Positions 3,357 through 24,087 of a DNA stretch of 27,106 nt are shown one piece after another. The position numbers and the translations under genes are program-made. The number at the start of each line of letters is the position of its first letter. The stretch's first letter is position 1. The DNA is from a virus. Below the pieces are notes generated by a model that saw only the letters and a list, made by a program, of their open reading frames with translations, did not search any database and had not been told where the DNA came from. The stretch is taken from IMG/VR virus record IMGVR_UViG_3300044675_003800, positions 1 to 27,106 of that record; one strand, given 5' to 3'.

Positions 3357-4113
3357 TTATGATTCTCTCTGCAAATAACTCATGTCCCTTTGGGCCAGCA
3401 TGCATGCGATCTCTAGCATACTCAACTTCTTCTCGACTTTTAGCAAACCAATCATGTGCATTGTATGTCAGGCAACGTATGCCTAACCGTGAACACAGGC
3501 CTTCTACTGCCAGTCGATTCCGTGCATTATTTAAGTCTGCATTACGATCATTCAAAAACCAAGTCTTGATAAAATTGTCAGTGTCTGCACCGCTGATTTC
3601 ACTGGCAGGCAAGTAAGTATCATGTTTGTTGCTGTTATCTTCATTTACTAGATCAAAACGATGTTTTGGTGGTGCGGCCATTACTACCAATTGTGGTTTT
3701 AAAACTGGTACCCAATATTCAGCCAGCATAAAACAAGTATCTGCACTGGTGCCGCCCCAGGCAAGATTGTAATTTTTTAACCCCAATGATTGTGCGACCA
3801 AATAACTCCAAGTAGATTTTTCGGGCAATCCAAGCCCAATGGTATAACTACACCCCAATGACACCACACTGGCTGCTTGCGGGTCAAACTCTTCAGATCT
3901 AAAGCCTTGACTATTGATACAATAAGTTATGGCATCTGGTTCGAGCCAGCCTTTGCTGCGAAAATATTCTCGATACTCGTCGACCTGCACAAGACGTTGA
4001 AAACTTTCTTCAGTGTCAGTGGGCATCCATTTTAGTGTTTGACCAGCAGAGTTTGTTCCAAAGTGCCACGGTGCTTTGTTTATATTATGTGTTCTTTGTA
4101 ATTGATTAATCAT
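3334..4113 (-). CDS. SGNH/GDSL-type hydrolase-like protein
   Basis: A 259-aa protein with the outline of an SGNH hydrolase. Block I is SLGCSYT (nucleophile Ser89, in a GCS rather than GDS context). A glycine block AWGGTSADT lies at 118-126. Block V is DRMHAGPKGHELFAERI, with Asp235 and His238 in the DxxH arrangement. The usual block III Asn is not obvious, since the equivalent strand reads VVMAAPPKHRFD. Such enzymes typically act as O-acyl esterases or lipases, and a role in deacylating or acylating a glycan fits the glycosyltransferase-like gene just upstream. This is inference. The ATG at 4113 is chosen because GGGAA lies 8 nt upstream. A longer TTG-initiated form (4128) lacks such a signal. 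The start overlaps the upstream gene's stop by 8 nt and the end overlaps terL by 23 nt, so it is probably translationally coupled. Confidence 0.8.
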   Translation of the reverse strand: MINQLQRTHNINKAPWHFGTNSAGQTLKWMPTDTEESFQRLVQVDEYREYFRSKGWLEPDAITYCINSQGFRSEEFDPQAASVVSLGCSYTIGLGLPEKSTWSYLVAQSLGLKNYNLAWGGTSADTCFMLAEYWVPVLKPQLVVMAAPPKHRFDLVNEDNSNKHDTYLPASEISGADTDNFIKTWFLNDRNADLNNARNRLAVEGLCSRLGIRCLTYNAHDWFAKSREEVEYARDRMHAGPKGHELFAERIINDFATIK

Positions 4114-5251
4114 ATAAAAAATTCCCAAGTTTGTTGTTTATTTTTTGTTGCATTTGTTGCAAATGGCTAGTCTGCCATTTTGTGCTCATTACTAAGCTAT
4201 GGTTGTGTTCAATACGAGCAGAAATTTTTTCCAATACTTCGGCTTGGTTCATATCACACAATCTTGTTACTTGTTCAAAAGCGGCTGTCCATCTTTCTTT
4301 GTCATCAAGAATCTGGTCATAACTTTCATCAATAACATTGTCAAAAGTTTGAAACCCCAGTTTACGAAGATTTTCTAAATATTTCCAACCCGAGAATACC
4401 ACAAACAATCTACGTGCTATCATGGGTTTGAAAGTTTTTTCAGTAAAAAAACTGTATCGATTGTCAATATGAGTTTCGGCTATTATGCTGTATGCAGTTT
4501 GATTGTATATTTGTATTGGCACAATCACACTCAATGCCAGTTGTTGCCCGTGGTATCCTACTTGCATTGCAGAATGTGTAATGGTCTCGTGAAAATTTTC
4601 AATGTCTGGTTCATGTAAAAATTCTTTTTTGAAATCATTTTTCACCCCCGGAACAACCCAACGACTGGTATTTTTTGTGTAGGTAGTCAAAATCTTTTGT
4701 TGTAAATGATTTTCTTCAATGGCATTGAATACAAAATCTCTATGCGGTCTTTCTAGTCCCAACAGTGCGTCAAAGTACAATGGTTTAACTGTTCCATGAT
4801 TTATTTGTTGTAACTTGTGTGTCAACTGTTGATACGGTCCTGCTGATCTTTCAATGTGGGATGGATAAAAAATCAAATTTTCATGGTTGATTCCTGTGTT
4901 ATGATTTATTTGTATGGGAACCATCCAGTACACATTGTCTTGAGAATTTTGTTGAAATATGTTCAAATGATAAGGGTGCATCTCATTGTCAAATGCAAAC
5001 AATAAATCACTGACCAATTTTAATTGCATTATATCCTGACAGAATTTATTACCGTTGACTATTTGCTCCATGTATTGTTGCTCGTCCGCTGGACGATTGT
5101 AACTGTCTAAATGATTGACAAATGCTATTTTAAATTTAGCTGTTGAATTGGTATATTCGTTGATTGAATGGTAAACTTGATACGGTTGCAAGAAATTCAA
5201 CTGACTAATATATGTGTCCATGATTATATTGTTGCTGTAAATTGAAATCAT
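4106..5251 (-). CDS. Glycosyltransferase-like protein (FTEK motif), paralogue of the gene at 23017-24087
   Basis: A 381-aa protein. Its C-terminal third has a pattern seen in fucosyltransferase/exostosin-like families: Glu259 in IIAETH, then FFTEKTFKPMIARR (268-281), a hydrophobic strand LFVVFSG, a YLENLRKLGFQTF helix and VIDESYD. A central segment LYFDALLGLERPHRDFV (158-174) is also typical of these families. Activity would be transfer of a sugar from a nucleotide donor, with the acceptor unknown. It sits between radical SAM and SGNH genes in one tight minus-strand unit. The region looks AT-richer than the flanking structural genes by eye. The start is uncertain: ATG 5251 lies 22 nt after the radical SAM stop. 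A GTG at 5317 would add 22 residues inside the upstream gene, and an ATG ten codons in (MDTYISQ) is also possible. Confidence 0.75.
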   Translation of the reverse strand: MISIYSNNIIMDTYISQLNFLQPYQVYHSINEYTNSTAKFKIAFVNHLDSYNRPADEQQYMEQIVNGNKFCQDIMQLKLVSDLLFAFDNEMHPYHLNIFQQNSQDNVYWMVPIQINHNTGINHENLIFYPSHIERSAGPYQQLTHKLQQINHGTVKPLYFDALLGLERPHRDFVFNAIEENHLQQKILTTYTKNTSRWVVPGVKNDFKKEFLHEPDIENFHETITHSAMQVGYHGQQLALSVIVPIQIYNQTAYSIIAETHIDNRYSFFTEKTFKPMIARRLFVVFSGWKYLENLRKLGFQTFDNVIDESYDQILDDKERWTAAFEQVTRLCDMNQAEVLEKISARIEHNHSLVMSTKWQTSHLQQMQQKINNKLGNFLYD

Positions 5252-5273
5252 TTTGGTATAAATTCTGATAGCA

Positions 5274-6398
5274 TCACAAGCACGATTGTATTTCCGGCCA
5301 TAAACGCTCAAACTCACCCAGTGTGTTAGGGTGATATTGTTGTTCTATTTGTACAGTATGTTCACGCAGTTGCGGTCTCAAGTCTTGTTTTGATTGTATG
5401 TTTTGCGACACTGTTTCAAAGAACTGTTGCTCTGCTGGCAAACAAATGTTGTGAGACAACAATTTTTTAATTTCATCCTGTGCCAATGCCACAACATCAG
5501 CACCTAGATTACTAGGGTCAAGGCATTCGGGTTGATACAGACTTTGCCAGTGTATGGTCAGATCACGCTGTCTGGCAAACTCAGTCAGTTCCTGTAAATT
5601 GGTAGCATTGTATATGTTGTACACAGCATGTACACCGCCCCAGTGACCTTGATCACGCATGAGTTGTTGTATAGCGTCCAAATTTTTTAGCAACAATGAC
5701 CACAAACCGCCGTGTCGTACATATTCAAATCTGTCACCAATATTGTCAAAGCTCAAGCTCCACCCAACTTTGTTACGCAGGGCTAGTTTTTTAAATATGC
5801 GATTGTTTTCCAGTTCAACACTAGCATTGGTTATCAGTGTGACCACACAGTCCTCTGGAATCACATCCAGCAGTCGATCATTTTCAGGCAGCAACAAAGG
5901 CTCTCCGCCTACCAAGGCCACTTCACGTATGTGGCCATGATGCTGTTCAAGATAATCACACACTGCTTCATAGTAAGGTCTTGCTCCTGATGCCACAGAC
6001 ATGTTCTTCAGTGCGGCCCATTTGCTACTGCATGCTTCTGCACAGTAGTTGCAACTGAGGTTGCAAGTGGTATTCCAACGCACATCAATCAAGGTAGGTA
6101 CGTGTTTGGTGTTGTCAGCCGTGGTGGGATCAAATTCGGGACTTACTGAATTGTGCCAATCACGTTCACTGCGCCCATAACGTTCGGCCTGCACACAGTT
6201 GTAACAGTAGGCATGTGGTTCCCCACGCTGTATGCTTTGACGTATTTCAGCCATTAGATCGCTGTTGAGCACTTGTTCAATGGTTTGAGAATTGAGGTTG
6301 CCCAGCATGTTGGGGTTGCCAGCACAGCATGTTTTAACGTCACCTCGGGGATTGATGTGCAGGCCACGCCAGGGGGCTGCACAGTAGAAATTGCTCAT
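5274..6398 (-). CDS. Radical SAM protein with N-terminal Cys clusters (Twitch/SPASM-like)
   Basis: A 374-aa radical SAM enzyme. The signature CNLSCNYC (C112, C116, C119; CxxxCxxC) would bind the [4Fe-4S] cluster that cleaves S-adenosylmethionine, and GGEP at 164-167 is the usual SAM-contact motif. Upstream of the barrel are C6, the pair C24-C25 and C65/C68 (YCYNC), which suggest an extra Fe-S or zinc site as in Twitch/SPASM proteins but N-terminally placed. The substrate is unknown; peptide or sugar modification are the common roles. It heads a cassette with the glycosyltransferase-like and SGNH genes. The ATG is preceded by GTAAATA and 4 nt (CGGT), a late-promoter arrangement seen at three other genes here. 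No Shine-Dalgarno is visible. Confidence 0.9.
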   Translation of the reverse strand: MSNFYCAAPWRGLHINPRGDVKTCCAGNPNMLGNLNSQTIEQVLNSDLMAEIRQSIQRGEPHAYCYNCVQAERYGRSERDWHNSVSPEFDPTTADNTKHVPTLIDVRWNTTCNLSCNYCAEACSSKWAALKNMSVASGARPYYEAVCDYLEQHHGHIREVALVGGEPLLLPENDRLLDVIPEDCVVTLITNASVELENNRIFKKLALRNKVGWSLSFDNIGDRFEYVRHGGLWSLLLKNLDAIQQLMRDQGHWGGVHAVYNIYNATNLQELTEFARQRDLTIHWQSLYQPECLDPSNLGADVVALAQDEIKKLLSHNICLPAEQQFFETVSQNIQSKQDLRPQLREHTVQIEQQYHPNTLGEFERLWPEIQSCL

Positions 6399-6416: not shown

Positions 6417-6854
6417 TCATTGGCACCAAGACGTTTTGGCTTCGCCGTAGTATTCTCTGGCATAGCCATTCACAATCAGCATCTGGCGCAGACTTTGACC
6501 ATTTAGAATGACATCTCCCAGTACACGACCACCGTACTTGTCCCAATCCATGAGAATGATCTGACGCTGGGTGGACTGTGCAATTGCATTTTTAGTGAAA
6601 GCGGTAGCGGCTTGGCCTCGTTGGTTTTCACTTTCGCATTGAGCTCGATGTCCTTTTTCTGGAGTATCAACGCCAAACACTCGGATTGACAGTTCTTTTT
6701 TAAGGGGGTCGGGTAGAAAGGGTGCGTGAAAGGCCACTGTGTCGCCGTCTATGACTCTGGTGATTTCAGCGTCATAGGTCACACCAGGTTTTTGTTTGCC
6801 TTGTGCTAGAGCCAATACAGGAACGACAAGTAAGAGTAGGATGAGTTTTTTCAT
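6417..6854 (-). CDS. Secreted thermonuclease-like protein (staphylococcal nuclease fold)
   Basis: A 145-aa protein with a signal peptide: MKK, then a leucine/valine-rich core (residues 4-16), with probable cleavage after ALA at 15-17. The mature part is an SNase domain. IDGDT (35-39) supplies the calcium-binding Asp, IRVFGVDTPE (57-66) supplies the catalytic Arg58, Asp63 and Glu66, and GGR (108-110) supplies the second catalytic Arg. All key residues are present, so it should be an active Ca-dependent sugar-nonspecific nuclease exported to the periplasm or outside. The start is set by the signal peptide; the upstream in-frame start at 6881 would put nine residues before MKK and overlap the fibre gene. 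An AATAAATA element lies 5 nt upstream. Possible roles are degrading extracellular or incoming DNA. Confidence 0.9.
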   Translation of the reverse strand: MKKLILLLLVVPVLALAQGKQKPGVTYDAEITRVIDGDTVAFHAPFLPDPLKKELSIRVFGVDTPEKGHRAQCESENQRGQAATAFTKNAIAQSTQRQIILMDWDKYGGRVLGDVILNGQSLRQMLIVNGYAREYYGEAKTSWCQ

Positions 6855-6859
6855 GTCAA

Positions 6860-6867
6860 TATTTATT
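6860..6867 (-). promoter_or_regulatory. T4-type late promoter element AATAAATA
   Basis: AATAAATA on the minus strand, 5 nt before the nuclease ATG at 6854 and overlapping the tail-fibre stop codon. Confidence 0.5.
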
Positions 6868-9271
6868 AGTTGCAATACCACACTCCGCCCACATAGGTGG
6901 CCAACACAATTTGTCCTTGTTGTGTTAATCCGGTGTTGCCCACTACAGTTGCTGGACTTTGGGCAGTGACTGTGTCGTTGGGAGAACCTAAGTGTACTGT
7001 GTCGGCGATTTGATATTGTCTTCCGTTGTAGGCACCATTGGCTGCATTGGGCAAGGTAACAGTTAAATTTTTAGCAGTAAGACCAATCCAGTAATCCGTT
7101 GTGGTGGCTGTGGTATTGGCTGCTGACAGCCTGGTGTTCACTGCCCAGGCATTGACATTGATAGCACCATATTGATCACGTACCACAATGGTGTTGGCTG
7201 TGTTGGCCGTGGTGGCATCTGTTATGATGTTGGCTGTGTTACCTGTGGTGGTTGCTGCAATATGAACTGTGCTACTCAGTGCAGTAGGGGTGATTGTGGT
7301 GATCACGCCTGTGAGTTGACTGCCGTTGCCCAGGAAGTAGTTGCCAGTGACATTGCCTGTGGTGCTGATGCCTGCGTTGATCACAGTGTTGCCACCAGAG
7401 AATATGCCGTAGGCACCAACTACATTTCCAGCGGTACTGACATTGCCAGTGGTAACAATATTACCGTAGAATGTGCCATTGAAGTTGGTGGCGTTGACAT
7501 TGCCCACAACACTGAGCACATTGGCTGCGGCATTAAAAGTAAGAAAACCAATGTCAGAAACTTGCTTGCCTGACCCAACAATGGCAATGCGTCCTGGTGT
7601 GAGATTTTGCCCAATCAAGTTGCCACCAGTGACATTGCCGGCTGCACTGACTATACCCCCTATGGTGGCATTGGTGCTGATTATGTTGTTGCCAGTTATG
7701 TTGCCCACAACACTGGCACCAGTGCTGTTGATGGTCATGCGCACATTGCTGACATTGTCTGTGCCGTCAGTGAAGAACTTGATGACTCGGGCAGCAGTTT
7801 GTGTGCCTATCACAAGGTTGCCACCGTTGATGTACAAGTAGCCGTCATTGGCACCGGTCACAGCATAGTCCACGTTGGCATACACGTTGGAGTTGATGCC
7901 CATGTCAATGTAATACGTGCTGTCATCACCGTTGTTGGCCACTGCTACAATGTCTGATGACGCATTGGCAGTTTGACTGTGATTCTTCAGGACAATCTGG
8001 CTGTAGTTGTCCACACTGGTATCACCTTGCAATAATGCATTGGTAAAATCGTAATTGTTGTAGGCATTGCCTAAATTTATTCGGCCATTGGCTATGACAT
8101 CAGCAACATATATTGTGTCAGCGGTGATGCCAACTGAGTTGCCAACGTCCATTTGCCAGGTGTTGCTGGTGGTGTTGTACAGCATGCCAGCATACACGCC
8201 ATTGGCTATGTTACCAGTGACAATACCGCTGACGTCAATGCCAGCAAAGTTGGTGGCAGTGTTGGCCACGTACACAATCTTGCCCCCAACAACACTTGGA
8301 ATAACGTTTGACACGTTGCCCAAGATGGTAAGGTCATTCACTGTGAGTGAATACAACTGTACGTTGGCTGTGGTGTTGAAGTTTTGTGGCAAACTCAAGG
8401 TAAGCACATTGCCTACATTGGCCACATTGATCTGATTTGTGGTGCCGTTCACGCCCAGTACGCCTGTGCTGCCAATGGTGATGGCACCTGTGCTGCTACT
8501 TAGACTAATACCTGAGGCTGCTGTGAGACTGTTGACCACATTGCTGAGTTGAGCACCTGTGCCGTAGATGTTGCCGCCCACATAAAGATCTTTGGCAATG
8601 CCTCCACCGCCTGCTGTTTGCAAGGATCCTGATGTGACATTGGAACTGTTGTTGACGTTGGCAATGATTGTTTCAGCATTGCTGAATATTTGACCAGTAA
8701 TGGTTTCAATACGAAAGATTGGATCAGTGGTACCAAATGTGTTGATGGTAAAACCAGTGGTGCTGATCACAATGTTGGCTGCAAGGTTTTCAATAACCAC
8801 CGAGTTAGCAATATTGCCGCTTGCGTCAAGCACAGTGATACTCTGTGGGCCAAAGTATGCATCTTGCCAAGGCACAGTGGGCAGACCTAAACTGTAACCG
8901 CTGTTGGTGGGCAACAAGTTACCGGTGTGATAGATATTGCCTGTGCCAGTGTCTGCTATGAAATCTGTGACTATGGTATCACCAGTTTCGATGTTGCCCA
9001 CAGAACTCAATCCAGTGCTGGTGACCACTAGATTGGGTGTTCCGCCAAAGTTTGCACCATCAAGATTGAACTGTATGTTGTTGACTGATCCGCCGGGTAC
9101 ACCATTGCCTGAACCACCACCAGTGATTAAAACGCCGCCGGGAGTTGATCCGTCGCTGTAGTAAAAAGCATTGGTATCAGGATTCCACCAGATACGCTCT
9201 TGTTGCCCTACATAGGTAGCACCATTTGCGTTGTTGTCTCGGCTGGTAAAAAGATTTTGGAGGAAACTCAT
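6866..9271 (-). CDS. Repetitive tail fibre / receptor-binding-type structural protein
   Basis: An 801-aa protein rich in Gly, Asn, Thr, Val and Ile with very few charged residues, typical of beta-structured phage fibres. The N-terminus (MSFLQNLFTSRDNN, then ERIWWNPDTNAFYYSDG) probably anchors it to the virion. The centre and C-terminal half carry many copies of short motifs such as GNVTG, GNxxGxGSQL and TGNxxS. The end (TVTLPNAANGAYNGRQYQIAD) resembles the C-terminal domain of other phage fibre or collar proteins. There is no catalytic motif and no obvious intramolecular chaperone. It is followed immediately by the nuclease gene. The start has AAGGTGG 4 nt upstream. Host recognition is inferred from composition and family resemblance; a structural spacer is an alternative. 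Confidence 0.82.
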   Translation of the reverse strand: MSFLQNLFTSRDNNANGATYVGQQERIWWNPDTNAFYYSDGSTPGGVLITGGGSGNGVPGGSVNNIQFNLDGANFGGTPNLVVTSTGLSSVGNIETGDTIVTDFIADTGTGNIYHTGNLLPTNSGYSLGLPTVPWQDAYFGPQSITVLDASGNIANSVVIENLAANIVISTTGFTINTFGTTDPIFRIETITGQIFSNAETIIANVNNSSNVTSGSLQTAGGGGIAKDLYVGGNIYGTGAQLSNVVNSLTAASGISLSSSTGAITIGSTGVLGVNGTTNQINVANVGNVLTLSLPQNFNTTANVQLYSLTVNDLTILGNVSNVIPSVVGGKIVYVANTATNFAGIDVSGIVTGNIANGVYAGMLYNTTSNTWQMDVGNSVGITADTIYVADVIANGRINLGNAYNNYDFTNALLQGDTSVDNYSQIVLKNHSQTANASSDIVAVANNGDDSTYYIDMGINSNVYANVDYAVTGANDGYLYINGGNLVIGTQTAARVIKFFTDGTDNVSNVRMTINSTGASVVGNITGNNIISTNATIGGIVSAAGNVTGGNLIGQNLTPGRIAIVGSGKQVSDIGFLTFNAAANVLSVVGNVNATNFNGTFYGNIVTTGNVSTAGNVVGAYGIFSGGNTVINAGISTTGNVTGNYFLGNGSQLTGVITTITPTALSSTVHIAATTTGNTANIITDATTANTANTIVVRDQYGAINVNAWAVNTRLSAANTTATTTDYWIGLTAKNLTVTLPNAANGAYNGRQYQIADTVHLGSPNDTVTAQSPATVVGNTGLTQQGQIVLATYVGGVWYCN
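7290..7715 (-). repeat. Degenerate GNVTG / GNGSQL repeats in the tail fibre gene
   Basis: The translated segment repeatedly shows GNITGN, AAGNVTGGNLIG, VGNVNATNFNG, TTGNVSTAGN, STTGNVTGNYF and GNGSQLTGV. At DNA level the plus strand shows recurrent acattgcc and ttgcc(a/c) blocks. These are short imperfect repeats of the beta-fibre type, likely recombination-prone. Confidence 0.7.
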
Positions 9272-9280
9272 AGCACCACC

Positions 9281-9619
9281 TTATTCTAGTGGCTCGTCGT
9301 TGCTGAGTTCGTGTGTGATCAATGCATTGACGCCAGCGGCCTTTTTCATGCGTTCCAAAGCGTCAGTTTCTTCTGGTTCCATGGGAGTCACACGATAGTT
9401 GCTGGCTTCTGGATTGTTGGCCAATTCGTCAACGTTTTCATCAAATTCGTTTTCAACGCCCACTGCTTTTTTCAACAGTTCGTATTTGCCTTGTAATGGC
9501 GGCAAAAATACATCAGTGGGCACTGGAATCAAGCCTGATGTATGCGGTGCATGATCCACAGGTTGTGACTTTGCGTCGATCATGTCAGCCATTTGGCGAA
9601 GTATTTCTGCGGCTCTCAT
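9281..9619 (-). CDS. Small phage protein with MRAxEIL N-terminus, unknown function
   Basis: A 112-aa acidic protein beginning MRAAEILRQMADMIDA, the same MRAxE opening as its two upstream neighbours, and ending HELSNDEPLE. It has two short matching helices, ELLKKAVGV (around 48-56) and RMKKAAGV, that resemble the REMAGI motifs of the 815-aa protein at 10960-13407. It is hydrophilic, with no membrane segment. The start has AAGGAA about 6 nt upstream and a CTAAATA late element 21 nt upstream. It resembles unannotated proteins I recall from uncultured aquatic phages. I infer a minor head or internal virion protein from the company it keeps. Confidence 0.75.
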   Translation of the reverse strand: MRAAEILRQMADMIDAKSQPVDHAPHTSGLIPVPTDVFLPPLQGKYELLKKAVGVENEFDENVDELANNPEASNYRVTPMEPEETDALERMKKAAGVNALITHELSNDEPLE

Positions 9620-9679: not shown

Positions 9680-10066
9680 TTAACGTGGGTAGCCAGCAAA
9701 GGCCTTGACTGGACTTTGTTTCAACACAGACGCAGGTTCTACGCTGTTGGGTGTGCTGACCTGTACTTTTTTAGCGGGCAAGCCGGCCATTTTTAATGCT
9801 TGATCAATTATGGGTTCAACACTGGCATTGAACCCACCAATCACAGCGTCTTCACCAAATGCTGCTGCCGGACTCCAGTCGGGCATGAATGGTATTGGAT
9901 CTTTGACTCCAGCGTCACTTCTGGCACGAGCCATGGCCACACCCAGTCGATAGATCTGGTATGGATCGCTAGAGTTCACGCCAGGCAACACAAACACATG
10001 ATTCATGGGATCTGCTTGCTCTGGAGGCAGCGTTGTTTCTTCTTTGAGGAATTCGCGGGCTCTCAT
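9680..10066 (-). CDS. Small phage protein with capsid-targeting-like N-terminus and SPVKAFAGYPR tail
   Basis: A 128-aa protein of unknown function. The N-terminus MRAREFLKEE resembles the T4 capsid-targeting peptide (MKTYQEFIAEA), including an L-x-E triplet where the T4 prohead protease would cut (L7-K-E9). The C-terminus is SPVKAFAGYPR, identical over 11 residues to the end of the upstream neighbour. The middle (HVFVLPGVNSSDPYQIYRLG, then MARARSDAGVKDP) shows no recognised domain. The start overlaps the upstream stop by 4 nt (ATGA), so it is translationally coupled. A packaged internal head protein is my inference; direct evidence is limited to the termini. Confidence 0.78.
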   Translation of the reverse strand: MRAREFLKEETTLPPEQADPMNHVFVLPGVNSSDPYQIYRLGVAMARARSDAGVKDPIPFMPDWSPAAAFGEDAVIGGFNASVEPIIDQALKMAGLPAKKVQVSTPNSVEPASVLKQSPVKAFAGYPR

Positions 10067-10434
10067 CTGGGATACCCCGCAAAGGCTTTGACTGGGCTTG
10101 TGACATGAACAGCAGGATGTTCTTGACTGCGTAGGTCACCTTTGTTTAAATCTTCATGATGACTGCCCACGGCCTTGTAGGCCATTTTCAACATGTCTTG
10201 TTCTTCAGGAGTGTAAGGTGCTGCAATGTTGTTGCGGCCTGCCCAACTCTCGCCATCAAGTTCAGGCACAAATGAGCCATCAGTTGACGCCACAGCCATC
10301 ATGATACGGTTGAGTTCGTACACCCGGTCAGCAAACTGTGCATCACGAAATTTGTTCAAGCCCACTGTGGCTTGATTCTGTCGTTTGCTCATTTTACCAA
10401 CCTTGTCTTCAGTGACGAACTCAGTTGCTCTCAT
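10063..10434 (-). CDS. Small phage protein with capsid-targeting-like N-terminus and SPVKAFAGYPR tail
   Basis: A 123-aa protein of unknown function. The N-terminus MRATEFVTED parallels its downstream neighbour (MRAREFLKEE) and the T4 capsid-targeting peptide, with V-T-E at residues 7-9 as a possible prohead-protease site. The C-terminus SPVKAFAGYPR is the same 11 residues as in the neighbour, although the bodies between the two ends are unrelated. The middle is basic then acidic (KMSKRQNQATVGLNKFRD; YTPEEQDMLKMAYKAVG). The pair looks like different cargoes between the same two terminal tags. Confidence 0.78.
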   Translation of the reverse strand: MRATEFVTEDKVGKMSKRQNQATVGLNKFRDAQFADRVYELNRIMMAVASTDGSFVPELDGESWAGRNNIAAPYTPEEQDMLKMAYKAVGSHHEDLNKGDLRSQEHPAVHVTSPVKAFAGYPR

Positions 10435-10435
10435 G

Positions 10436-10783
10436 TTAGGTGGCTGGAGTTGCTATACCATTGCTGGCTGCTGTGGCACTTGAGGCTGTGCCCAGGGCAG
10501 TGGCAGTGAAGCCGCCAGCACCTGTGAGAATGTTCAAATAGTTGCCTGCACCCACGTAGTATTGGGCTACAGCGTTGCCTGGCACAGCAATAGCGTTGGC
10601 ATACAAATTGCCCACAGGAGTAGTCATTGTGGCGTTGGCCGTATTGCCATTAGTTTGTTTATAGGTCAATTGCACTGCACTGACTTGAAATGTCACATTG
10701 CTGAGTGTGGTAGCAAATTCTACTTTGTCCGTGGTCCAAAGAGTGTTGCCAATTGCATTTACAACTTGTGTTGTGGTAGCCAT
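10436..10783 (-). CDS. Small Ala/Thr/Asn-rich probable virion protein
   Basis: A 115-aa protein almost free of charged residues, rich in Ala, Thr, Val and Asn. It has a predicted beta-type body (VEFATTLSNVTFQVSAVQLT, then YYVGAGNYLNILTGAGG) and a low-complexity alanine/serine tail. This composition is typical of small virion surface or decoration proteins. I recognise no family. The start codon overlaps the stop of the upstream 57-aa gene by one nucleotide (TAATG), so the two are likely translated together. Confidence 0.72.
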   Translation of the reverse strand: MATTTQVVNAIGNTLWTTDKVEFATTLSNVTFQVSAVQLTYKQTNGNTANATMTTPVGNLYANAIAVPGNAVAQYYVGAGNYLNILTGAGGFTATALGTASSATAASNGIATPAT

Positions 10784-10959: not shown

Positions 10960-13407
10960 TTACCCCTTGTATGCTTTCCATTGGTTGGTGAGAGCAAAAA
11001 TGCTTTCATCAATGTCTTTTTTCTTGATTGCATTTGTTCCAGGAATCTTGTCACCAATTTTTACATCATCGTCTTCGAGTCCTTTGGTGAACAAGTTGCC
11101 TTCTTCAGTTTTTTCTTCGTCAACTGCTTTTTTGGCTTCTCGAATGCCAGCCATTTCTCGCATGCGTTGAATGCTGTCTTTGCTAAATTCAGCATTGGCT
11201 GAATCAGAATTCATGTCAGAGATGTCTGGACTCATACCTGATTTCAATGCAGAATTGACTTCGTCGTTTGACATAGCAGCAATGTCAGGACTCATGCCCA
11301 ATTTTAATGCAGCATTGACTTCGTCCTTTGACATAGAAGCAATTTTAGAAGATGTTGGGCCTAGAGGGTTACGAATTTTGATGCCGGCCATTTCTCTAAT
11401 TCTTTGCAGGTCATCATCATTGTGTGGTCGAGTAGCCACAACAGGCACAGTGGATTGTCCGTTGCCGGCAACGTCTGCTTTGGGCTTGTTTAGACCGCCA
11501 GCATATTGCAATGCATCGCTAGAAGTTTCTGTGTTGGTAGGCCAGTCAGGAGCATTTTCGTCCACTGCTTCTTGTACATCGCCACAACCACAATCTGGCA
11601 TTCCGCATGTTGAGCATGATTCATCACTTTGCAGTTCACGTCCCTGACCGCCCAGGCCTGCTGACTTCAGCATCATGGCCAATTTCATTGCGTCATCATC
11701 AGTGGCTGTGACTGTGAGGCTTTTGTTGCCTTCTGTTGAGTCGCTCATGTTGATACTCATTGACTCAGCAATCATTTGTTCTAGTTCACGATTCATTGAG
11801 TCGTAAATGCCTTTACCGAAACTCATGCCGCTGCTGGATTTGGCTGGACTGGTATCCTTGTTGGACACGGATGCTGTGTCTGTGTCATCGTCCATTTGTT
11901 TTTCTGGTTTGCCTGGTTTGACAGACATTTTACCGTTGCCAATGGTTGCACTGACTCTTCCAGTACTGGAAGTGGTCAAAGTCTTCCCAGGACCAGTACG
12001 TGTGGTAGTGATTCTGCCTTCTTCAGAAGTCTCATCAACTTCTTCTTTGTTTTTAGAAACTTTTTTAGGCAGGCCTTTGGTACTACCCTTGGCAAATTTA
12101 TTCAATTCTTTGGGTTGCATTTTGGCCATTTCTGCACTGGCAGAACCTGGTTTGGCTTTGGCTGTGCCTTTTTGTACACCACGTGCAATACGAGCAGCAA
12201 CGGCTTGATTCTTGCTCTTTGGTTCTTCAGCAATTGCTTCGTCGTCGTCGGCTTGATTCTGCATGTATTCGTCCACAGAGATCATCATGCCTTCAATCTT
12301 GGCCAGTTTGCTTTGTACCCATTCTGGCAAATTATCGTCGTCGCCTAGAACTTTGCTCAAGGCCTGTGCATGACGCACAATGGTCTTGATGTCGTTTTTG
12401 GCCATGTCGCCTTCTTGATCGTATTCACCTTGATCACGAATGTCTACTTCGCCTTCCTTGGTCATCAACTTAGACTTGCCACTAGGTCCTTTGGCACCAA
12501 TAGCACCCTTTGTGCCTTTGGGTCTGCCACGTCCACGTGGTCCTGCTTGTGTGTCAGCATCATCATCTGCACCCACTGAATTACCTTGGTCGTCCACTCT
12601 GCGTGTGACCATGCGGCCTGTAGCAGTGTGCTTGATATCGTGTTTGTGACCACGTTCTACTGAACCAACTTTGGGTTTGGCAGCTCTTGGTGTGCTCATG
12701 TCAAACGCAGTGCCTTTGGAACGTTCTTCGTCCATTTCAGGCTTGGCACCTTTACGTAACATGGCAAAATCGTTGGCATCTAGTTTGCCATTCTTGTTCA
12801 TGTCAATTTTCTTTTGTTTGGGGCTCAATGCATTACGCATGGCTTCAGCAGCCACATCGCCCAGCATTTCGTCAACTTCTTTTTTGGCACCGGCAATCTT
12901 GTCGGCAAAGGTGATTTTGTTTGCAGGAGGTGCCAATTTGGCAAATGACTTTTGTTTAGGCGTCATGCCAGCTTCTTTCACACCTTCAGGATCCATTGGT
13001 ACAGGTACTCCTTTTTCACCTGGCTTGGGTGGATCAGCAGTCCATACACCACCTTTGATGGTGCCCATAAATTCTCCTTTGGGAGCTGGACGAGTACCGC
13101 GAGTCATTCCTTTTTCTTTTTGTTGTGGTCGTTTTGGTTCAATTTCTAAATCTTTATAGACACCACCTTGATTGTACATGTCTTCATCCACTTGGTCGTT
13201 GTCATACTTGTCATATTTTTTTCTAACAGGATCAAGGGCTTTGCCTTCGCGACCGGCCTTGGCCAATGCTTGCATGCCTTGTTTGCCGTACTTTTCATAG
13301 CCTTTGGCAGCACGACTCATGTCACGCTCATTCAATTGCTGGTGTGTGACTTCAGGTGTGGCACGAATGCTGTCTAGTTTTTTGTTTAAATCGTAAAAGA
13401 AACTCAT
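10960..13407 (-). CDS. 815-aa multi-motif charged protein (AT-hook, EF-hand-like loop, Cys-rich knuckle)
   Basis: A long, mostly hydrophilic protein of unknown function starting MSFFYDLNKKLDSIRATPE. In order: basic region 30-70; EF-hand-like loop DMNKNGKLDAND (202-213); AT-hook-like PRGRGRPKGTK (290-300); a conserved-looking helical block (338-385) around LPEWVQSKLAKIEG; basic linkers 400-455; a Cys-rich knuckle CSTCGMPDCGC (598-608); and APDWPTNTETSSDALQYAGG (619-638). RIREMAGI (669-676) and RMREMAGI (748-755) flank two 20-residue repeats (690-729). The C-terminus NQWKAYKG slightly resembles the KAFAGYPR tails of neighbouring proteins. The DNA-binding motif, charge and position among capsid-targeting-like genes suggest a prohead core or DNA-associated internal protein. 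This is inference. The ribosome site AGAGGA lies within the end of the upstream gene. Confidence 0.85.
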   Translation of the reverse strand: MSFFYDLNKKLDSIRATPEVTHQQLNERDMSRAAKGYEKYGKQGMQALAKAGREGKALDPVRKKYDKYDNDQVDEDMYNQGGVYKDLEIEPKRPQQKEKGMTRGTRPAPKGEFMGTIKGGVWTADPPKPGEKGVPVPMDPEGVKEAGMTPKQKSFAKLAPPANKITFADKIAGAKKEVDEMLGDVAAEAMRNALSPKQKKIDMNKNGKLDANDFAMLRKGAKPEMDEERSKGTAFDMSTPRAAKPKVGSVERGHKHDIKHTATGRMVTRRVDDQGNSVGADDDADTQAGPRGRGRPKGTKGAIGAKGPSGKSKLMTKEGEVDIRDQGEYDQEGDMAKNDIKTIVRHAQALSKVLGDDDNLPEWVQSKLAKIEGMMISVDEYMQNQADDDEAIAEEPKSKNQAVAARIARGVQKGTAKAKPGSASAEMAKMQPKELNKFAKGSTKGLPKKVSKNKEEVDETSEEGRITTTRTGPGKTLTTSSTGRVSATIGNGKMSVKPGKPEKQMDDDTDTASVSNKDTSPAKSSSGMSFGKGIYDSMNRELEQMIAESMSINMSDSTEGNKSLTVTATDDDAMKLAMMLKSAGLGGQGRELQSDESCSTCGMPDCGCGDVQEAVDENAPDWPTNTETSSDALQYAGGLNKPKADVAGNGQSTVPVVATRPHNDDDLQRIREMAGIKIRNPLGPTSSKIASMSKDEVNAALKLGMSPDIAAMSNDEVNSALKSGMSPDISDMNSDSANAEFSKDSIQRMREMAGIREAKKAVDEEKTEEGNLFTKGLEDDDVKIGDKIPGTNAIKKKDIDESIFALTNQWKAYKG
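11221..11340 (-). repeat. Tandem 60-bp coding repeat (two 20-residue units)
   Basis: Residues 690-709 (ASMSKDEVNAALKLGMSPDI) and 710-729 (AAMSNDEVNSALKSGMSPDI) are tandem copies differing at four positions. A third, decayed unit (SDMNSDSANAEFSKD) follows. The DNA copies are clearly similar, suggesting recent slippage or duplication within the 815-aa gene. Confidence 0.85.
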
Positions 13408-13411
13408 TGTA

Positions 13412-14020
13412 TTATCCTCTTGGGTTGGCGCCAGTTGCTGGCTTGGGTGGACGAGTGATCTTGGTCATTGGGCTTTGTGTGCCTTGAGCAATTTCATTTG
13501 TGGTTTTAGCAGGTGGTGTCTTGCCACCAGCAATGGTGAAGTCACTGCGATATGCATTTTTCAACACAGCATGGTCATAAGGACCAGTTGCGTAGTCTTT
13601 CTTCAATGCACGTTGTTCGGCATCAGGGGCAGGATAATCTGTGTCATCCAACAGGTCTTTGTTTTGATCGTCAATCTTTTCGTACTCATCTACCAGGCCA
13701 TCCACGTATGGTGTGGTCTGCATGATGATGTGATTGGGGTCCATGCCCAGCAACTGTGCCAGTTGTTTGATCTGTGGCTCAATGGCTGGATACTTGAAAC
13801 TCACATCAAACATTGTTACTGAATCGTTTTTGTTGTTGGGAAAGTCAGTGGGAATGATCTGTATAGGCGTGGTCCGGGGATCACTCATTTTAACAGGATC
13901 AAATTGATCCAACTTTTTCTTCAACTGCGATACCAAATCACCAGGCGGTTTGCCCAGCATTTTGATACGATAGTTGTAGGTACGTTCGCTTTCGGCGAGG
14001 TAATGGGCAAAATTTTTCAT
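13412..14020 (-). CDS. 202-aa phage protein with capsid-targeting-like N-terminus, unknown function
   Basis: The protein begins MKNFAHYLAESE, a close match in layout to the T4 capsid-targeting peptide MKTYQEFIAEA, with L-A-E at residues 8-10 exactly where T4 prohead protease cuts its internal proteins. The body appears folded (YRIKMLGKPPGDLVSQLKKK; TMFDVSFKYPAIEPQIKQLA; LDDTDYPAPDAEQRALKKDY), and the C-terminus is proline-rich and disordered-looking (TKITRPPKPATGANPRG). ATG 14020 is chosen because AGGAA lies 7 nt upstream; an earlier in-frame ATG (14038) would swallow that site. A late element AATAAATA precedes it. I recall similar unannotated proteins in uncultured aquatic phages. A head-internal or head-associated role is inferred. 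Confidence 0.8.
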   Translation of the reverse strand: MKNFAHYLAESERTYNYRIKMLGKPPGDLVSQLKKKLDQFDPVKMSDPRTTPIQIIPTDFPNNKNDSVTMFDVSFKYPAIEPQIKQLAQLLGMDPNHIIMQTTPYVDGLVDEYEKIDDQNKDLLDDTDYPAPDAEQRALKKDYATGPYDHAVLKNAYRSDFTIAGGKTPPAKTTNEIAQGTQSPMTKITRPPKPATGANPRG

Positions 14021-14037
14021 ATCAGGTTCCTGTAACA

Positions 14038-14045
14038 TATTTATT
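14038..14045 (-). promoter_or_regulatory. T4-type late promoter element AATAAATA
   Basis: AATAAATA on the minus strand, 17 nt before the ATG at 14020, overlapping the gp16 stop codon; AGGAA lies between it and the start. Confidence 0.5.
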
Positions 14046-14573: not shown

Positions 14574-15005
14574 TCAAGCACGACCGTTGTGAAACATATC
14601 CGATTCTGTTATCACTCTAAAACTTAACCCGTTTTTTCTGGCCCATTTGGTGGCTGCGTCCCATTTGGCATAGTTGATTGCTACTACAGCACGGTCTCTG
14701 CTGTTCATTTTTGACTCGATCACACTTTGACTTTTGGGTTTGATTTCAATCAACTCGGCTCGCACAGTGTTGTCTCTGTTGCGATAAGTGATCAAAAAGT
14801 CTGGAATGTATTGTGTCATCTTGCCTGTTATGGGATGACGATAAGGGATAGCAATGCTTTCGCTGGCCCATTGCAACACATGATCGTTGGTGTCGCAGAA
14901 CTTCATAAAACTCAGTTCCCAACCTGATCTGTAGCGAGGCGTTCCATTGCCCGCATACTTTTCACGATTGAGTATGACATAGTTGCCCTGTGCCCAACGA
15001 CTCAT
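14574..15005 (-). CDS. 4: Head completion protein, T4 gp4-like (endonuclease-like fold)
   Basis: A 143-aa protein closely following the T4 gp4 pattern: RYRSGWELSFMKFCD (24-38), WASESIAIPYRHPITGKMTQY (46-66), PDFLI (68-72), ELIEIKP (84-90). Glu30, Asp69 and the E-I-K triplet at 87-89 form a PD-(D/E)xK nuclease-like set. In T4, gp4 is needed to complete the filled head before tail joining and may trim or seal the DNA end. Length matches the family (about 150 aa). The start overlaps the upstream stop by 4 nt (ATGA), so it is coupled to the 119-aa gene. Confidence 0.88.
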   Translation of the reverse strand: MSRWAQGNYVILNREKYAGNGTPRYRSGWELSFMKFCDTNDHVLQWASESIAIPYRHPITGKMTQYIPDFLITYRNRDNTVRAELIEIKPKSQSVIESKMNSRDRAVVAINYAKWDAATKWARKNGLSFRVITESDMFHNGRA

Positions 15006-23013: not shown

Positions 23014-23021
23014 TATTTATT
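23014..23021 (-). promoter_or_regulatory. T4-type late promoter element AATAAATA for gp13
   Basis: AATAAATA on the minus strand, 19 nt before the gp13 ATG and overlapping the stop of the upstream glycosyltransferase-like gene. Confidence 0.55.
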
Positions 23022-24087
23022 GAAGTTTTGCTATCGTATTAGACAACCAATTGGCAAAATCCGCAGGCCATCGACGTTGCATTTGTGCCAACAGTTGTTG
23101 ATTGTGTGTGGCAGCGTCCTGACATTTTGCTGCCAATTTGACTTGATCAGAATTTTTTATGTTGTGATAATTTTGTATGTTGAGTTTGACAAATTCTGAA
23201 ATTTTTCCATGACCGTACATGCTATTGCTTTGTATCAAATTGTCATAACTGTGGTCTACCACATCTTCTAACACATCAAACCCCAGTGTTTTCAAGTACC
23301 CCACCGCATGTTTTGCTGAAAACACAGCCCAAGGTGCCGGAGTTACCAGTGCTCTAAATATCTTTTCACTGAATGCTATGCTAACATCTCCAGCATAGGT
23401 TTCAATTACCAAATTGAGATACGCACCAACCTGTGTTTGCTCAACTGTCAATGCATGATTTCTAATGGGTATGTGCGGCCGAGTTTGATCAAACCACTCA
23501 GCATATTCAGTATTGTGCAATTGATTCAACTGTGTCCAACACTGTGCAAAACTGCGTTGAGCATGTTCAGCAGTGTGCTCATTGCCATGTGCTCGTGCAT
23601 TGAAATTCACATGGTCTAATTGTTGTACTTGATCAATCCCACCTGACTGTTTTATTAACTCTAACAAAATCAGTTGTCGTTGACTGTCTAGTCGGTTGAC
23701 TGAAAAATTAAATCGCCGACTTGGTGTCCAATTTTGATCTGCTGGCACATAACTAAACACTCCAAAGTAACTTGATGGCAACTTCAGTATTTGATAATTG
23801 GTAGCAACGGACATGTAATTGTCAGTGATGATTGTGGTGTCTTCATCAAACCACTGATTTGGTGGCAGGCTCCAATCATCTCTGTTGACTCCAAAGTCGT
23901 CAGCCAGGCACACAATGACCTTGCGATTGCCACGACCCCATCCTCTGGCACTGCCGGGTATTTTTTGATAGCCCATGTGCATCAACACACTTGAGAACAA
24001 ATGAACCATTGCATGTTCATGATACATGCAATGGCTTTGCTGAAATATTTCTCCTAAGTGAGTTTGATAAAATACATCATCAAACAT
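23017..24087 (-). CDS. Glycosyltransferase-like protein (FSEK motif), paralogue of the gene at 4106-5251
   Basis: A 356-aa protein whose C-terminal third shares the pattern of the 381-aa protein at 4106-5251. The shared elements are Glu229 in LVIETY, AFSEKIFRALVTP (238-250), WAVFSA, GYLKTLGFDVL (263-273) and VVDHSYDNL. Upstream, RRFNFSVNRLDSQRQLIL (124-141) matches the LERPHRDF block of the paralogue. The layout is that of GT10/exostosin-like glycosyltransferases; donor and acceptor are unknown. The N-terminal half (GSARGWGRGNRKVIVCLADDF) could be the acceptor domain. AAAGGAT precedes the ATG. It lies between an early-type gene and gp13, so its timing is unclear. Possible roles are modification of virion proteins or host surface glycans. 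Confidence 0.72.
   Translation of the reverse strand: MFDDVFYQTHLGEIFQQSHCMYHEHAMVHLFSSVLMHMGYQKIPGSARGWGRGNRKVIVCLADDFGVNRDDWSLPPNQWFDEDTTIITDNYMSVATNYQILKLPSSYFGVFSYVPADQNWTPSRRFNFSVNRLDSQRQLILLELIKQSGGIDQVQQLDHVNFNARAHGNEHTAEHAQRSFAQCWTQLNQLHNTEYAEWFDQTRPHIPIRNHALTVEQTQVGAYLNLVIETYAGDVSIAFSEKIFRALVTPAPWAVFSAKHAVGYLKTLGFDVLEDVVDHSYDNLIQSNSMYGHGKISEFVKLNIQNYHNIKNSDQVKLAAKCQDAATHNQQLLAQMQRRWPADFANWLSNTIAKLQ

Follow-up and report, generated by a model that had tools for sequence, protein, structure and literature searches.

Why should two small, adjacent phage proteins that look dissimilar along most of their length begin almost alike and end in exactly the same 11 residues? The question is raised by two genes, referred to here as A and B, in a viral stretch of 27,106 nucleotides (IMG/VR record IMGVR_UViG_3300044675_003800; henceforth the window). 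A sequence-only reading of the window had taken the two proteins for different cargo carrying a common tag at either end, i.e., a modular targeting or assembly signal. The features that bear on this question are the following.

10063..10434, minus strand: gene A, paralogue 1, 123 aa (open reading frame and family of 59 unique sequences).
9680..10066, minus strand: gene B, paralogue 2, 128 aa (open reading frame and family of 58 unique sequences).
10408..10434, minus strand: first nine residues of A (MRATEFVTE), a putative capsid-targeting sequence ending in protease site VxE (pattern conservation; same start on unrelated proteins).
10040..10066, minus strand: first nine residues of B (MRAREFLKE), a putative capsid-targeting sequence ending in protease site LxE (pattern conservation; same start on unrelated proteins).
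10066..10128, minus strand: A residues 103-123, conserved C-terminal tail S-x-E-x7-SPVKAFAGYPR (tag alone 10066-10098).
9683..9745, minus strand: B residues 108-128, conserved C-terminal tail S-x-E-x7-SPVKAFAGYPR (tag alone 9683-9715).
10436..10783, minus strand: 115-aa protein directly upstream of A, conserved and so placed in many loci.
10960..13407, minus strand: S, 815 aa, with a conserved tail ...ESIF.LTNxW+xYKG weakly like the tag (KAYKG at 10963-10977).
13412..14038, minus strand: D, 208 aa, head or virion structural protein that has an LxE-type N-terminus of its own (PHROG 14802, E 8e-4).
14574..15005, minus strand: TnsA-like endonuclease, presumably with a role in head completion, which marks the head/neck gene cluster (Pfam PF08722, E 1.8e-20).

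A and B, which overlap by four bases (ATGA), are thus located after the TnsA-like nuclease, D and S in a head/neck cluster that also contains tail tube and sheath genes; the PHROG category of D is head and packaging. The open reading frames bear out what had been read at their ends: both proteins finish in SPVKAFAGYPR, both start with MRAxEF (in its fuller shared form, MRAxEF[VL]xE), and the 815-aa protein S ends in NQWKAYKG.

The bodies between these ends are nevertheless not unrelated, as had been supposed. When profiles of the A-group (62 sequences) and the B-group (75 sequences) were compared with HHalign, they aligned over 121 columns with a probability of 99.9 (E 1e-31), and after removal of both ends (residues 1-10 and everything from S-x-E on) they still aligned collinearly (probability 97.0, E 1e-10, score 56.7), while none of 300 shuffles scored as well (best 20.9) and the reversed control reached 9.6. 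An earlier and narrower body-only profile comparison had been weaker (30.4 versus a best of 28.5 in 100 shuffles; score 22.0 and probability 14% without S-x-E), and it was the more diverse alignments (56.7 versus 20.9) that settled the paralogy. Body-only BLAST (sequences minus 10 N-terminal and 12 C-terminal residues) joined all 189 sequences, through intermediates, in one network at E<1e-6; at 1e-10 the network fell apart into three groups, and A and B were no longer in the same one. Landmarks common to both are Y-x3-R-x5-A, which lies in the first helix, and the terminal S-x-E-x7-S-P-x3-F-x-G-Y, and AlphaFold2 models of modest confidence (pLDDT 75 and 79, pTM about 0.5) place two main helices in the same order (A 37-50 and 76-89; B 35-52 and 83-94); fold searches with these models matched no known fold. 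Given the homology of their bodies, A and B are ancient, diverged tandem paralogues over their full length, and their identical ends are explained by common descent, i.e., ordinary paralogy, and not by tags added to unrelated proteins.

A recent duplication of whole genes had been thought less likely. In the window, 7 of the 11 tag codons differ between A and B (counted by eye), so the identity of the two tags does not stem from recent copying of DNA. Across the family, the idea that the tag was lately duplicated or spread by gene conversion was rejected: codon identity at matching tag residues was 0.47 within genomes and on average 0.43 between them (shuffle maximum 0.49), and tag residue identity was equal within and between genomes (0.746). 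The 9-mer S....F.GY was identical between A and B in 3 of 97 unique A+B pairs, so exactly matching tags are a peculiarity of few genomes. The suffix after GY was the same in A and B of one genome in 70 of 94 cases (permutation mean 45, maximum 55); with binning by relatedness as the sole correction, the effect was gone among the closest pairs, and we set this covariation aside.

Neither protein is peculiar to the window. A search with protein A found 138 related stretches, from which 80 loci were kept for the A and B families, and across these viral loci the tag is kept in both families far beyond chance; it is widespread in related phages. Within the 59 and 58 unique sequences, four tag residues (S, F, G and Y) never vary and the other tag positions are strongly conserved, as are M1, R2, F6 and E9 at the other end (in an alignment without one B sequence cut at its start). 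A broader survey of members by family HMMs, covering the window, 160 loci (from the protein-A search and the tag scan described below) and four whole records, gave at least 326 member ORFs, 322 of them tagged, in counts that are not independent as the sources overlap; the four untagged ORFs are the same gene in four loci, and the number of copies per source ranged from 1 to 4. Searches for relatives of A, B and three diverged members found no convincing one among 50,697 phage records. Nor did A, B or the three diverged members have convincing homology in PHROG or Pfam. Weak matches were limited to one of 62 A-group members, which hit a virion structural PHROG at E 0.0018, and to two of the 75 in the B-group, which hit other PHROGs (E 0.007-0.009). 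We found no description of the family in the literature searched, which lay largely outside subscription journals. The family is therefore nameless in the Pfam and PHROG searches made, yet common in uncultured phage contigs.

The conserved C-terminal tail is longer than the tag, with the consensus S-x-E-x7-S-P-h-K-x-F-x-G-Y-x-R. For the counts that follow we used 280 unique members (those of the HMM survey plus those of the N-terminal scan described below, with the start motif required). Among the matches listed, S-x-E-x7-S was found in 278 of the 280 and the FxGY tag in 265: all 265 had tag and core, 13 had the core alone (one cut by the locus end) and two, both cut, had neither. Twelve complete members among the matches listed thus do without FxGY, meaning that the tag is not essential to all members. 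The tag also differs from the body in mean net charge (+2.8 and -2.9, respectively). An alternative ending, KKNKYG[VI], considered as a candidate second modular tag, was seen in five ORFs, four of them in the family (L303, L318, L322 and L334, where it stands in place of FxGYxR) and one an S protein (that of L055, ending in KGKYGV).

We then scanned the viral collection independently of the body, using the DNA pattern of PVKxFxGYxR followed by a stop (at least 120 stretches, 80 loci examined). This gave at least 98 matches, each with a true stop, five of them running off the locus at the 5' side; the remaining 93 carriers listed all had the family start (M[RK]xx[ED]F in 92, and GTG as the start codon in L162). 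The same pattern occurred in 21 stretches of prokaryote genomes, 15 with a true stop and four representing one Flavobacterium-type protein, and a family-type start was found in none of the 21. With 93 of 93 complete carriers showing the family start and none of the prokaryote stretches doing so, the tag belongs to one family.

The N-terminus behaves differently. The start of the family, MRAxEF[ILV]xE, is almost invariant (position 7 is I, V or L and position 9 is E in 268 of the 280 unique members among the matches listed, which at motif level marks a putative cleavage site) and it is also found on many unrelated phage proteins. A scan for the DNA pattern of MRAxEFIxE (at least 120 stretches, 80 loci examined) gave at least 95 matches, of which 51 belong to the family and 44 are outsiders. 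We clustered the outsiders of at least 60 aa together with seven proteins from the whole records G001 and G005; once the first nine residues had been trimmed, these non-family leader proteins (at least 47) fell into at least 22 body clusters, and G005 alone encoded five of them besides A and B. By PHROG and Pfam, they include endolysin/GH19-like proteins (L349, L352, L305, L357) and a ParB-like one (L311). The notion of two end tags around different cargo therefore stands for the N-terminus, with its many unrelated bodies, and fails for the C-terminus, which is confined to one family: the modular part of A and B is the N-terminus alone. Two of the leader proteins are small, at 65-66 aa (L354, minus strand, near 11838; L362, minus strand, near 7597), and continue from MRAxEFIKE into [NT]AS.GAT..G, a context that the major capsid protein shows as YLKE-NAS.GST..G close to its own N-terminus, around its probable cleavage site. 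In L305 (2992 onward), the leader appears by eye to be followed directly by a Tat-type-like export signal. The endolysin-like leader proteins are possibly lysins delivered with the virion.

A leader of this kind resembles the capsid-targeting sequence of phage T4 with its prohead-protease site. In T4, the gp21 cleavage motif is hydrophobic-x-E, with which the conserved residues at positions 7 and 9 agree. According to the available parts of the papers, that sequence is N-terminal and removed by the gp21 prohead protease (PMC9958956, PMC3012670, PMC10229621) and is the sole sequence common to the T4 internal proteins (PMC3012670, PMC10229621). Like these proteins, the leader carriers have some 10 N-terminal residues in common on otherwise different proteins, with several such proteins per phage, and a hydrophobic-x-E site ending the leader (at motif level only); a gp21-type protease (peptidase S77) is present in six of 10 related records, and a gp23 capsid protein in seven of 10. 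Two records, G004 and G005, show the T4-like head-cluster order portal, acidic core protein, gp21, scaffold-like protein and gp23, where gp21 and gp23 were identified by family search and the others named from position and sequence. No gp21-type protease was seen within the 27-kb window, which is a fragment, and S77 was not detected in six records with non-family leader carriers, which are fragmentary and in which the controls were equally silent. A and B differ from the T4 proteins (IPI-IPIII and Alt) in that no homology of their bodies was detected at the level of PHROG and Pfam matches, in an extra invariant C-terminal tail and in the tandem arrangement of their genes in a head/neck cluster.

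Two other phages offer partial parallels. The SPN3US ejection proteins gp53 and gp54 are, like A and B, paralogues that have diverged strongly (34% identity) and that have prohead-protease motifs within an identical N-terminal stretch; they differ in having propeptides of more than 100 residues and an AxE motif, and the available part of the paper mentions no common C-terminal tail (PMC5694885). PA5oct resembles the window in the order of its genes around tail sheath, head-completion-like and D genes, and ESI-MS/MS accompanies the structural annotation of two of its proteins, a distant relative of D and the one that occupies the place of S; it differs in that no relative of A or B was found in the phage collection containing PA5oct and in that S is not significantly similar to its positional counterpart.

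We propose, with rather more confidence than doubt, that A and B represent an undescribed family of small (about 125 aa) internal head proteins of T4-like phages, which would be targeted and clipped at the N-terminus and would dock through the C-terminal tail. The nine N-terminal residues would act like the T4 capsid-targeting sequence and bring the protein into the prohead core, where a gp21-type protease would cut after E9 and leave the two-helix body in the head. The extended tail would be exposed and dock on a shared partner, be it the capsid shell, the core or a structural neighbour; in this proposal, the docking is the reason why the tail is conserved while the body drifts. Tandem duplication and divergence of the bodies would then yield several different internal proteins per phage, as in T4. 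Both ends thus likely serve as a targeting or assembly signal, as had originally been suggested, and the tail is a conserved hallmark of the family and most likely a docking peptide. Against the proposal stand the facts that no family member has yet been seen in a virion and none has a cultured relative, the six fragmentary leader-carrying records without detected S77, the twelve complete members without the tag, the modest models and the lack of PHROG, Pfam or fold matches; the endolysin/GH19-like leader carriers, one with a Tat-like signal, do not sit easily with a role restricted to the head. If correct, the leader provides a simple sequence rule for predicting head-carried proteins, among them enzymes that the virion may deliver into the host. 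The tail would open a fresh approach to a question still described as mysterious (PMC9958956), namely how certain proteins find their place in the scaffolding core of T4.

The strongest alternative, which we consider unlikely but worth keeping in mind, is that the tail belongs to the structure of the protein itself or to the interface of an A:B (or A:A) pair and owes its conservation to the oligomer, not to a third partner. The fixed spacing of S-x-E-x7-S and the mostly side-by-side arrangement of A and B favour it, as does the moderate confidence of the B tail (pLDDT 72-82); against it, the models predict no secondary structure in either tail, the A tail has low confidence (pLDDT 51-67), and strict A:B pairing is contradicted by the three to four copies in some loci.

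Another reading starts from the neighbour S. The pattern K-x-[YF]-[KRAQ]-G near the C-terminus, drawn after S had been seen, was found in 9 of 1282 ORFs in four records, and eight of the nine were A, B or S; in profile comparison, 4-5 of 300 shuffles matched the tag as well as the S tail did. The kinship is a weak, post hoc resemblance and serves as a lead only. The tail of D was rejected as a third tag (146 and 116 of 300 shuffles equally good); in its own right, this tail, TTN[DE]....G.[KT]SPM[TS].[IV][KN]R, is very conserved among 39 homologues. Taken together with the leader, the S tail allows a two-ended code for head assembly, in which a cleaved MRAxEF[ILV]xE would load unrelated proteins (even lysins and ParB-like nucleases) for delivery and a retained motif K-x-aromatic-[+]-G, placed at or close to the C-terminal end of A, B and S, would bind one capsid site; we regard this as improbable.

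It is improbable to a slightly greater degree that A and B belong to the neck, to the tail or to early host takeover, with MRAxEF as a leader of another kind: the tail tube and sheath genes in the cluster and the endolysin-like carriers would suit this, and it is opposed by the fit of the leader to the pattern of targeting sequence plus protease site and by the assignment of D to head and packaging.

Very improbable, in our view, is a propeptide at both ends, with the prohead protease cutting after E9 and again after S-x-E and the tail being a removable assembly peptide. The two residues flanking E vary whereas S and E themselves are conserved, a pattern like that of a protease site, and S-x-E is the phiKZ protease motif and A-x-E that of SPN3US in the available parts of PMC5694885 and PMC10052503. 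By contrast, P3 is occupied by I, L or V instead of S in the putative N-terminal sites, the fixed seven-residue spacing to SP suggests one binding unit, and the cleavages by SPN3US gp245 reported in the available text, self-cleavage aside, all yield N-terminal propeptides (PMC10052503). Least probable of all, and largely refuted, is a modular C-terminal tag on unrelated proteins, for which the identical 11 residues despite poor pairwise similarity and the KAYKG end of the unrelated S could be cited, and against which stand the homologous bodies, the family start and length range of all 93 complete carriers listed, the shuffles that equal the post hoc S match and the non-significant D tail.

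Some further observations concern the surroundings. After B, the window encodes a different small conserved protein of 112 aa (9281-9619) with the start MRAAEILRQ and an acidic, DEPLE-like end. The genes at 4106-5317 and 23017-24087, glycosyltransferase-like by eye, seemingly have a C-terminal stretch in common (SEK.F, LGF, D.SYD), and a radical-SAM-like gene (5274-6398) and a secreted nuclease-like gene (6417-6881) were also noted by eye. Ribosomal protein bS21 is encoded in all four of the records G001, G004, G005 and G008.
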